64,000 nucleotides of DNA. It comes from Norana najaformis (lineage: Eukaryota > Annelida > Clitellata > Crassiclitellata > Hormogastridae). The translations under genes were made by a program, and so were the position numbers. Of the stretch, positions 47,828-53,535 are shown in pieces (the first letter of the stretch is position 1; every line of letters begins with the position of its first letter). The notes below the pieces were generated by a model. It made no database searches, had not been told where the DNA came from, and saw nothing but the letters and a program-made list of their open reading frames with translations. The DNA lies in assembly GCA_964023275.1 (NCBI GenBank), contig OZ029929.1, positions 6,363,935 to 6,427,934 on the forward strand, in the 5' to 3' direction.

Positions 47828-48600
47828 TTTAGCTTCACTAACTCATGTACTTTGACCGTCATCAAAAGGCTTCACCTGGAAAATTTGTCTAACCGCTGTG
47901 AGGAATATGCTGTGATGACAGGAGTATCGCTACATGGGTGACTACAATTCCAAGAACCAACGCCATGGATTCGGCCGAGCGTTCTTCAAGAACGGCGACT
48001 CCTACGAGGGTTACTATGAGAACGGAAAGCGACACGGGCATGGCGTCTACAGGTGGGCTAATATGCGTGGAGACGGGGTCTCATAAGACTGCCATGGCAG
48101 CGGTAGGAATCTGATGCCGAAGAACACAATGACTAGGAATCCATCCGTTCACTAATATATCCCTATTTAAAAGTATGCTTCTCAATATCCATCGTTCTAT
48201 TCATTGACCTTTCATCCACTCGCTCGAACGTTGTTTGTCGATGTCAAGCGATCTTTGACCTCTTAAGAGATAAGCCATTACCTAACATTGCCTTACCTTA
48301 CCTTACCGCGATTCACTTTGCATTTACTTACCTACATTACCTTACCTCATCTTACCTTACCTTCCTTATTATACCTTATCGTACTTTACCTTCTCGTAGG
48401 TTCACAAATGGAGCGGTCTATGACGGTCAGTGGCAGCACGGAATGAAAAACGGCCTCGGAGTCTTTGTCTATCCAGACGGATCCAAATATGACGGTAACC
48501 CCAACTGAACCGTACTCGATTTGAATAGACTGCAGACTATATTATGTCCTAAACTAGAATATATTGCAATACACTAGTATACACTGGGACACAATAGTTG
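47828..48600 (+). repeat. Segmental duplication block 2, copy B
   Basis: Copy of 36,787-37,557 with few substitutions and small indels. Confidence 0.9.
47922..48494 (+). pseudogene. Partial RSPH1 duplicate (exons 1-2 only)
   Basis: Exons 47,922-48,052 and 48,400-48,494 have the same lengths, phases and encoded MORN repeats as RSPH1 exons 1-2, with GT-AG sites kept (the acceptor changed from TCTCAAG to TCTCGTAG). None of exons 3-8 follows. Reading on past the second donor gives GNPN and a stop. The next plausible acceptor (48,673) is out of phase and would stop at once. The exon sequences are almost unchanged, so the duplication is recent. It is probably non-functional, or a short MORN protein. 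Confidence 0.8.
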
Positions 48601-48804: not shown

Positions 48805-49156
48805 ACCACATGAACACAGTCCTCGTGAAAAGTATTCCGCTTGCAACCATACCATTCGGAGGCATGAAAAATCTAGTTGTCGAAACCCATCCAGAGATGA
48901 TGTCGTAGTCCCAGTACTTAACTTGCGTTTCAGCCACTGATTATACACTGAACAACAAATTTTTACAAAAGTCATGTTACTGAAATGAAATTAGTCAGTT
49001 CTTATCAATTTGTATGTGCTGAACACGAATATGACAGTGAAAATGCCGAATTGGCTCTAGTTTTTTTGTAATCTGAAATGAAGTAATTTTATATCGCACA
49101 ATGCATGCCAATAGTGATACACTTACAGTTAATATTTGTAAAAACCAGGTCATAGA

Positions 49157-50854
49157 CTAGTTCTTAGATTTTTTTGCCTGTCTCTTGTACAGCTGTTCGG
49201 GAGCATCTCTGCGGAGTGTCCAGCAGTAGTCAGCCAACATTGTAGTGGACCATTTTCCCTGGTACCTTTGCTCCATTGTTGCGATATCTTGATGAAAACG
49301 TTCGCCATGTTCGTCACTAACCATACCACAGTTGTCAGGGAAGAAATCCAGATGGGAATGAAGGAAATGCATCTTCAGAGACATATTGCAGCGAAATTTC
49401 TGGTACTGCTTGAGCATGTCTTCTACTAGTTCCTTGTAGTTTTCTGCCCTAACATTCCCCAGAAAGACTGTAGACACTAGACGAAAAGCATTCCATGCTT
49501 GTTTCGCATCACCCTCCAGCAAGTTGTTGAAGCGGTCATCTTTGAAGAGTTCTCTAATCTGAGGACCCACAAAAACTCCCTCTTTAATCTTTGCTTCGCT
49601 GAGTCGAGGGAATTTTTCATGCAGGTATCGGAAAGCTGGCGAAGTGCGGTCCATGGCTTTCACGAAGTTCTTCACCAAACCTAGTTTGATGTGAAGGGGT
49701 GGTAGTAGGATTTTGTGAGCCTCGACCAGAGCTGGGTGCTGGATATTCTTCTGTCCAACTGCCATGTTTTGTCTGGGAGTCCATTCCTTCCGCACGTAGT
49801 GCAACTCTCTTGCTCGGCTATCCCACTCACACAAGAAACACATACATGTATATTTTGTATATCCTTGCTGCAGTCCCATTAAAATGGCAACTACCTTCAA
49901 ATCACCACACAGGTGCCATTTGTACCTGTTATAGTCAATGGAATGCAGTAGCTGTTTTAGGTTATCGTATGTCTCTTTCATGTGGACAGCATGCGCTAAT
50001 GGAATAGATGGAAGACGGTTTCCATTGTGCAAAAGCACAGCCTTAAGACTCAGTGTTGAAGAGTCTACAAAGAGTCTCCATTCTTGTGGGTCATGAGTGA
50101 TCTGTAAGGCATTCATGAGGTCGTCAATGTTGGAACAGAATACCAGATTACCTTCCTTCATAAAGAAAGGTTCCAACTGCTGATCGCGCTTTCTATATGA
50201 AGTAATTGTGACATCTTCTTCTAGAAGATTCCATTGTTGGAGTCTTGATCCTAGCAATTCTGCCTTGTTTTTGGATAAGTCCAAATCACGAACAAGGTCA
50301 TTTAGTTCTTCCTGTGTTATTCTGTGTGGGGTTGATGATGCACCACAGTGAAAATCGGGATCACTGCACGCTGACGGACCAGGAGAAGAACATGTCGGCT
50401 CACCCTTGTCCTCATCAGATGAATCAAGGAAAATATATTCTGCTGGAGGTTCTGGAATAGGAAGTCCATCACCATGTGGAACTGGTCTCAATGCTGACGG
50501 AATGTGTGGGTAGACTATTGTCGACTTCTTTTGCTTCGTTATTCCACCGGAAAGAGGAGGAACCAAGCAGAAGTAACAGTCATCTACGTGGTTGCTTTGC
50601 TCTCTCCACTCCATGGGAACTGCAAACGGCATTGATGGTCTTTTGCCATTCAACCACTGTGAAAGCTGTGTTGTACATGTAGCACAGCATATATGCGGGG
50701 CCCATGGCTTGTCTTGGTCACCAACCTTGCATTCGAAGTAAGCATGATATGCCTTCTTGACTTGATAAGTGATACTTTTCTTCTGGTTGGCAAATGTCAC
50801 TTCCCCACAAATGTAACAAAAGTTGTCCACAGTATTTACGCACTTCCGAGGCAT
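49157..50854 (-). CDS. Uncharacterised 565-aa protein, candidate transposase
   Basis: Intact intronless frame from ATG at 50,854. Residues 13-60 hold Cys pairs CYIC ... ECKVG ... HICCATC, a zinc-finger-like N-terminus, and CYFC follows at 93-96. Residues about 140-180 are acidic and Ser-rich. The C-terminal two thirds are dense and conserved-looking: EWRLFVDSSTLSLKAVLLHN (Asp 264), WHLCGDLKVVAILMG (Asp 318), CMCFLCEWDSRAR (Cys 339/342), LLPPLHIKLGLVKNFVKAMD, FVGPQIREL, FLHSHLDFFPDNCG and VSDEHGERFHQDIATMEQRY (Glu 515/518). Proteins of this type recur as uncharacterised repeated ORFs in many invertebrate genomes, as I recall. Asp 264, Asp 318 and Glu 515 or 518 could be a DDE-type triad, but that is a guess. 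The flanking TIRs favour a transposase; a domesticated gene is the alternative. Confidence 0.85.
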   Translation of the reverse strand: MPRKCVNTVDNFCYICGEVTFANQKKSITYQVKKAYHAYFECKVGDQDKPWAPHICCATCTTQLSQWLNGKRPSMPFAVPMEWREQSNHVDDCYFCLVPPLSGGITKQKKSTIVYPHIPSALRPVPHGDGLPIPEPPAEYIFLDSSDEDKGEPTCSSPGPSACSDPDFHCGASSTPHRITQEELNDLVRDLDLSKNKAELLGSRLQQWNLLEEDVTITSYRKRDQQLEPFFMKEGNLVFCSNIDDLMNALQITHDPQEWRLFVDSSTLSLKAVLLHNGNRLPSIPLAHAVHMKETYDNLKQLLHSIDYNRYKWHLCGDLKVVAILMGLQQGYTKYTCMCFLCEWDSRARELHYVRKEWTPRQNMAVGQKNIQHPALVEAHKILLPPLHIKLGLVKNFVKAMDRTSPAFRYLHEKFPRLSEAKIKEGVFVGPQIRELFKDDRFNNLLEGDAKQAWNAFRLVSTVFLGNVRAENYKELVEDMLKQYQKFRCNMSLKMHFLHSHLDFFPDNCGMVSDEHGERFHQDIATMEQRYQGKWSTTMLADYCWTLRRDAPEQLYKRQAKKSKN

Positions 50855-50969
50855 TACTGTTCTGTATTGTATCTAAATGCATAAAGTAATAATAGTTTTA
50901 TAAAACAGTAACTTAAACTGTCTCGCACAAAGTCTGTAATATTGTAAATGCTCAACCGTTCCGACTCGC

Positions 50970-51050
50970 TTTATATAGTACACTGCTGACGTCATCTTAC
51001 GTCAGCAGCCGACTGGCTGTAGTTTTACATTGCATCAGAAAATGACGTAA
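50970..51050 (-). promoter_or_regulatory. TATA box and three CRE-like sites upstream of the 565-aa ORF
   Basis: Reverse strand: CTATATAAA at 50,978-50,970, about 120 bases before the ATG. Upstream of it are TGACGTCA (50,987-50,994), a second ACGTCA half-palindrome (50,999-51,004) and TGACGTAA-type (51,043-51,050). The first two form an inverted repeat, GCTGACGT...ACGTCAGC. This is a plausible compact core promoter inside the element. Confidence 0.55.
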
Positions 51051-51249
51051 TCAACTGTGCATGATGTGTCCATGATGGGATTATGCAATGAGGTGGACTA
51101 TTACATCATTCTAGACTTATTTAGGATATTGTCGCAGTCCTACTGCATAAATTTACATGGTGAAACATAAAAAATGAACTATATGAAATATTTTCAAAAC
51201 GAGAGCCAATAAAAAAATTTTATGGTTATATTCGTGTTCAGCACACCAA

Positions 51250-51955
51250 GATGCTACACATTAGGGCCTTTTCCAGTCAGTAACGATTTCTATGTTGACC
51301 AGTGTTATGGAAAGCTGCCCCCGCCGGTCGGTGTAACCTTCTCACAGTTAAACCCACCGGGTATTGGTAACCGACTGTATGCGCAAATCCGTGGACCAGG
51401 AGAACATAATACAGTATAGGCTTGGCTAATATTGTTGGAGAAAAAGTGAAACGGTTTCGACGATCCATATGCTATGGTGATTTTTCCATTCATTATATTT
51501 CTGCCTAAGTGTGTCTCTCCTACTGCTTCCAACAACAAATCGCGCTCTCTTCAAATATACATATATATACATATATATATATATATAAAGAGAACGCCAT
51601 ATACAGTACATAGCGAATAAATTATATTGAATATAACTATGTGTCACGTGGTTCAGACTTCAGAGGGTGTGTGAAGCGTTAATATGTAGGAGTCTCCGTC
51701 TGATCTGGATGAGGGAGATTTTCCAAAGAATTGGAGCCATGAAGAAACTCAGTGACGTCACTCCAAGTATCAGCAAGTACACCTAGAACATTTGCAAATA
51801 TTATTGCCACTGTAGTTACTCTACTACTTCTACCACTATTCCCACTCACACAACTTCTACTACTGTTACTTCTACTCCTACCAACACCACCAATACCGCC
51901 AACGCCGCTGCTGCTGCTACTACTACAATTACTACTGATGATGATGATGAGTTCT
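51250..51955. other. Non-coding with TA and CTA microsatellites; doubtful TMCO3 last exon
   Basis: ATATACATATATATAC at about 51,556-51,587 and ACTACTACT-like tracts at 51,815-51,930. On the reverse strand 51,820-51,679 reads VTTVAIIFANVLGVLADTW and ends in a stop. This faintly resembles the last membrane helix of TMCO3 but has a poor acceptor, so it is not counted as an exon. Confidence 0.4.
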
Positions 51956-53219: not shown

Positions 53220-53535
53220 ACATATCCTCGAGGTTATAAAATGAGCATGATCACAAATATAAATACGAAAACTGCAAGTATGCATTAGGAGAACGTTCAC
53301 TCAGTTGTTTCTTAGTTGGACTACGAATTGCTGATTCCCTCTGTACATCTTGACCTGGAACCGAACCCTTTTCCCTATCGATTTTGTTTTGACTGAGCGC
53401 CTGTGAATAAGCTGGTCCCCGTGACGTTGCTTTCGTTGGGCGCTGTAGAAATGTCGGAATTACGATTACGATTAGGAAATTGTTGATTAATGCAATGTAT
53501 CATGGTGGAACGTATTGGCGAAAAATGAAAGGAAG
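53220..53535. other. Non-coding, LINE 3' UTR-like piece
   Basis: Includes TACAGCGCCC/CGTAATCGTAATC-type tail sequence (53,435-53,475) like other local LINE 3' ends. No exon seen. Confidence 0.4.

Follow-up and report, generated by a model that had tools for sequence, protein, structure and literature searches.

What is the intact reading frame that lies between inverted repeats in this part of the Norana najaformis genome, and how far does the DNA that moves with it extend? The stretch analysed, hereafter the window, is 64,000 nucleotides of contig OZ029929.1 and carries at 49157..50854, on the minus strand, a gene for a protein of 565 amino acids in a single open reading frame (ORF). An earlier note on this DNA had reported the intact frame, which is indeed present, and had read the locus as a young autonomous DNA transposon ending at 49015 and 51245 whose protein fits no known transposase family. 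We conclude with high confidence that the element is a Chapaev3 DNA transposon (CMC group), one of a family that is young and has amplified recently. The ends, copies, duplications, empty sites, motifs and predicted fold were read directly and are described below. What is new is a separate Chapaev3-type family in the N. najaformis genome, the Chapaev3 group itself being already described.

Boundaries and terminal layout of the element

Homology to the window copy starts at about 48945 and stops at about 51305 in nearly all of 28 loci, the exceptions being end-truncated copies and one incompletely extracted locus. The breakpoints carry CACTG and CAGTG: the left terminus reads CACTGGACAACA in the majority sequence and CACTGAACAACA in the window copy (48946..48957, plus strand), and the right one, read inward, CACTGGTCAACA (51293..51304, minus strand). 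Since these termini stand at the alignment breakpoints, the window element is 48946..51304, a complete Chapaev3-type element of 2,359 bp, an extent to which the 3-bp duplications and the empty sites of other copies also point; the majority sequence of 24 aligned copies is 2,353 bp long. The ends proposed earlier fall short by 69 and 59 bp. They do not coincide with the breakpoints, a test set beforehand, and the sole reason is that the true ends are further out.

The inverted repeats themselves are real and exact over their outer 18 bases, and they are subterminal rather than terminal. Their arms (49015..49064, plus strand; 51196..51245, minus strand) span 50 nt, are 78% complementary with the outermost 18 bases identical, and continue with ATTGGCTCT.GTTTT at the same inner spacing on both sides. 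In the majority sequence they begin at base 70 from the left end and at base 60 from the right, the right block thus lying 10 bp nearer its end, and 30 bases on either side of the 18-bp repeats are common to the first eight loci, except that L006 diverges at its truncated right. The exactness of these repeats would fit a 2.23-kb transposon proper nested in a larger repeat, as would the truncated copy L070, which begins 2 bp outside the left 18-bp repeat and has the outer end as its right end; but the homology of full-ended copies stops at CACTG/CAGTG, next to target duplications, and none of the 60 distinct copies with ends read is bounded by 18-bp repeats on both sides, so we give the nested unit next to no chance. 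The 2.23-kb unit as the element itself was ruled out by alignment breakpoints outside it.

The ends are bipartite, each combining 12 outer bases with the inner 18-bp block, and with 17 bp to ATTGGCTCT inside both arms. The spacer between the outer CACTGGWCAACA and the inner 18-bp repeat is 57 bp long in the left end (48946..49032) and 47 bp in the right one (51228..51304), a difference of about one helical turn. This layout suggests two transposase contact blocks, with putative binding at the subterminal repeats. In one copy, L017, a 10-bp deletion in the left spacer equalises both spacers, and an exact TTA duplication is present. The inner repeats go without mention in the accessible part of the Chapaev3 description (PMC4079192). 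The ends of ProtoRAG, which makes a 5-bp target duplication, are described as likewise bipartite and unequal (27 and 31 bp; PMC8289069), a resemblance that may be significant. Unlike Transib, ProtoRAG and RAG1, the window family duplicates 3 bp rather than 5 bp, has the spacers given above and lacks a second long ORF in the element.

Copies, target duplications and empty sites

Two sets of copies were read, BLAST pieces shorter than 150 bases being skipped in reading ends and duplications. The first comprises 40 scored DNA copies out of 1200 first-look candidates, all 98-100% identical and spread over 13 of 17 contigs; 25 align from first to last base, and 16 of these 25 show an exact 3-bp duplication. 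The second, obtained by protein match, comprises 30 loci extracted of 77 scored matches (6559 candidates) and adds 20 new copies, of which 15 align end to end, eight of them with an exact duplication. Together, 24 of 40 end-to-end copies have an exact 3-bp target duplication, which is TAA or TTA (TWA) in 17 of the 24. In 15 copies with an exact duplication, read by eye, an A stands before it in 12 and a T after it in 11. Between target duplication and element end, one to four extra AT-rich bases were also seen by eye in several full copies (junctions of L001, L011, L018, L036, L039 and L040); these might have been added as palindromes or brought along from the donor.

When the flanks of L022 are put together with one TAA between them, they match a repeat, and 40 scored candidates at 90-93% identity run uninterrupted across the insertion point; L072, the sole candidate fetched for this site, aligns gap-free with a single TAA and is an empty site. 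The L027 site lies within an older repeat crossed by two fetched relatives, a weaker case because these show small gaps near the point and lack the TTA. No empty site was found within the loci already extracted.

The 77 scored protein matches are 99-100% identical, 74 of them without an internal stop and three with one TGA. Substitutions set the 24 full copies apart from the majority sequence by 0.04-0.38%, and singletons make up 81 of the 94 variable columns, a star-like pattern that is that of a recent burst. Because the copies analysed are the best-scoring ones, older copies are unrepresented. The near-identical intact copies bear out the view of a young autonomous transposon with a single ORF, and the family may be active at present. 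The intact and conserved ORF would equally suit a host gene domesticated from a transposon, but the abundance of near-identical copies that have ends and target duplications contradicts domestication, which we consider extremely improbable.

The transposase and its family

The search for homologues returned 1954; among the 120 listed, the named ones include a frog and the beetle Pyrocoelia (both 60% identical) and a moth (56%). The window protein was aligned with 43 of these 120, the other 77 listed being left out, and the motifs D, D, C(2)C, LH, H(4)H and E are found in all 44 sequences. On the minus strand, the probable first catalytic Asp, D264 (50063..50065), falls within strand 259-265 of the structure model, the probable second, D318 (49901..49903), just after strand 314-317, and the probable third catalytic residue, E515 (49310..49312), starts helix 515-530, E518 being a possible substitute. 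All four acidic residues, singled out previously as conserved-looking, are invariant in the 44 sequences, as are the C(2)C motif C339xxC342 (49829..49840) and the H(4)H motif H496 x4 H501 (49352..49369), and N-terminal Cys/His positions are invariant or nearly so.

The predicted structure matches the RAG1/Transib fold with a second-look aligner, including a RAG1-like catalytic fold, in keeping with the RNase H-like transposase suggested earlier. Homologues and structure model together point to a DDE/RNase H-type transposase with a RAG1/Transib-like predicted fold, in which the DDE residues probably carry out catalysis. The window protein had no match in a Pfam scan or in the PDB searched by sequence, and the 44 members gave weak Pfam matches only (zf-AD, best E 0.0017, in 3/44; PF12560 RAG1_imp_bd, E 0.54, in 1/44). 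Patterns from two short peptides only found no relatives in viral contigs, and a text search of papers for a conserved peptide found none.

Chapaev3 elements have been described with CAC..GTG ends, 3-bp TWA duplications reported as invariably set between A and T, the motifs C(2)C, LH, H(4)H and DDE, mostly a single exon, a length of 2,289 bp and 556 aa for Garfield, relatives in distant animals and repeated horizontal transfer between animals (PMC4079192). An N-terminal Chapa zinc finger and a relation to Transib have also been described (PMC4411706), and copies are listed from a fly (PMC3630058). The window family has the same CAC..GTG termini, a 3-bp, mostly TWA duplication, the same motifs, and one ORF of 563-565 aa in 2,353-2,359 bp, close to the ~2.3 kb and ~556 aa of Garfield, Merrow and Conan, and it too has relatives in distant animals. 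Its protein therefore does match a published transposase family, against the earlier note. Unlike Garfield and Merrow, with two exons each (PMC4079192), it is encoded in one ORF. The invariant or nearly invariant N-terminal Cys/His positions are a candidate counterpart of the Chapa zinc finger.

Several points weigh against this assignment. Membership is judged by published features rather than by an alignment or tree with named Chapaev3 proteins, and none of the best 120 matches of two homologue searches bears that name. PF06918 (DUF1280), assigned to Chapaev (PMC3985635), gave no match at E<=10 with the window protein or the 44 members, and Foldseek alone found nothing below E 1e-3 among PDB and viral models. 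Of the end-to-end copies, 16 of 40 are without an exact 3-bp duplication; seven of the 24 exact duplications are not TWA (CTA, CAA, TAG, two TAT, two ATA); and the placement between A and T is only a bias in this family, where the publication gives it as invariable (PMC4079192). The window copy itself is flanked by TTATA and TTATG, with no exact duplication: the left flank TTATA (48941..48945, plus strand) probably represents the target TTA plus two extra bases, and the right TTA (51305..51307, plus strand) its probable duplication. This copy also carries a 6-bp insertion, TACATG (49843..49848), missing in the 23 other copies of the 24 aligned, which puts two more residues immediately ahead of C339. 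The copy is thus poorly suited as a type specimen, and ordinary intact copies are found elsewhere in the genome.

CACTG is compatible with EnSpm-like ends, and the seven non-TWA duplications would suit another CMC/CMCT lineage, EnSpm/CACTA or an unnamed sister, that merely resembles Chapaev3. EnSpm is also described with 5'-CAC..GTG-3' ends and 3-bp duplications, and the C(2)C and H(3-4)H signature that the window family has in common with EnSpm/CACTA and Mirage marks the whole clade, Chapaev3 being a sublineage of Chapaev (PMC12730594). Against such a lineage, the mostly TWA targets, the 2.35 kb, the one 563-aa ORF and a probable N-terminal zinc region are those of the Chapaev3 description, and no Pfam model of EnSpm (TNP2/Transposase_21) or Mirage is among the matches of the 44 members, a weak argument, as distant members may escape Pfam; we regard this other lineage as improbable. 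PIF/Harbinger elements use TWA targets too and have two genes, one encoding a Myb-like protein, unlike the window element with its only one long ORF.

For a Chapaev3-type element, we propose that the transposase of 563/565 aa would bind the element ends and that its DDE RNase H domain, with a RAG1/Transib-like fold, would cut beside CACTG; the excised DNA would then insert preferentially at TWA, producing the 3-bp duplication. The inner 18-bp repeats may have a role in this process. Flank hairpin formation is a feature of RAG and Transib, and by analogy a hairpin might form on the flank here.

Truncated copies with long target duplications

Among the 60 distinct copies whose ends were read (40 from the first set, 20 from the second), 14 lack more than 5 bp of one end. 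In 12 of these 14 (L006, L008, L012, L015, L029-L033, L045, L046 and L051), the broken end carries a second copy of the target DNA that borders the intact one, over 10, 11, 15, 15, 19, 26, 32, 46, 51, 72, 76 and 78 bp. Eight of the repeats are letter-exact and flush, and those of L030, L031, L032 and L033 deviate by one added base, by a gap or by a small number of mismatches. No duplication is present in L034 (7 bp lost) or L070 (67 lost). An exact flush repeat of at least 9 bp occurs in none of 46 full-ended copies (30 of the first set, 16 of the second); the full-ended L060 and L064 lie in microsatellites, and their matches are approximate.

The length of the duplication rises with the number of element bases lost, amounting to about a quarter of it (n = 12, Spearman 0.92, slope 0.235), a correlation reached by none of 20,000 shuffles. 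It is present separately in left-truncated (n = 7) and right-truncated (n = 5) copies and reaches 0.90 when only the nine first-set pairs are taken, with L029 (169 lost, 11 duplicated) as an outlier well off the line; both copy sets were selected by high score, and the losses covered reach 305 bases. Junction microhomology is 0-5 bp, and at least 2 bp in eight of 12, as raw counts without a shuffled control. The intact end adjoins TAA, TTA or CTA in ten of the 12 and CAA in L015; L045 has neither and has lost one base.

The pre-insertion site of L046 lies in a repeat, and 24 relatives of at least 90% identity run unbroken across its joined flanks, over 287-313 bases. Because this span fits the 76-bp segment once and L046 holds two (query 1-150 and 73-300), the duplication was most likely made together with the insertion.

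The truncated copies likely reflect strand transfer by a single end, after which the free end was eroded and then joined by microhomology, a course that does not by itself account for the proportionality. We further propose, tentatively and at somewhat less than even chances, that they record failed Chapaev3 integration in one step rather than decay, and that the bipartite ends act as an asymmetric pairing signal like the recombination signal sequence (RSS). One end would join normally, mostly at TWA, while the free end is eroded; the target would be opened asymmetrically, and joining at 0-5 bp of microhomology would seal the gap, the duplication growing with the element bases lost at about 1:4. 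Such proportionality would mean that both tracts record coupled resection and synthesis. The unequal 57/47-bp spacers could then be an RSS-like pairing signal for a transposase that has the RAG1 fold but is not a Transib enzyme. In the openly accessible literature, at the level of titles and abstract openings, we found no account of truncated DNA transposons flanked by long duplications that scale with the loss.

Around the window element, positions 53347-53489 hold another dispersed repeat, about 90% identical and also found near copies L004 and L010, and about 48400-48510, just left of the element, the DNA looks coding by eye, with MORN-type repeats.

With this assignment, a widespread ORF without a Pfam name gains a mobile-element identity, and the recently amplified family supplies a Chapaev3-type element that has defined ends, is present in intact copies and encodes a protein predicted to fold like RAG1. 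Its many near-identical copies make end-joining events readable, and the proportional duplications are a natural record of the possible outcome when one transposon end alone integrates.
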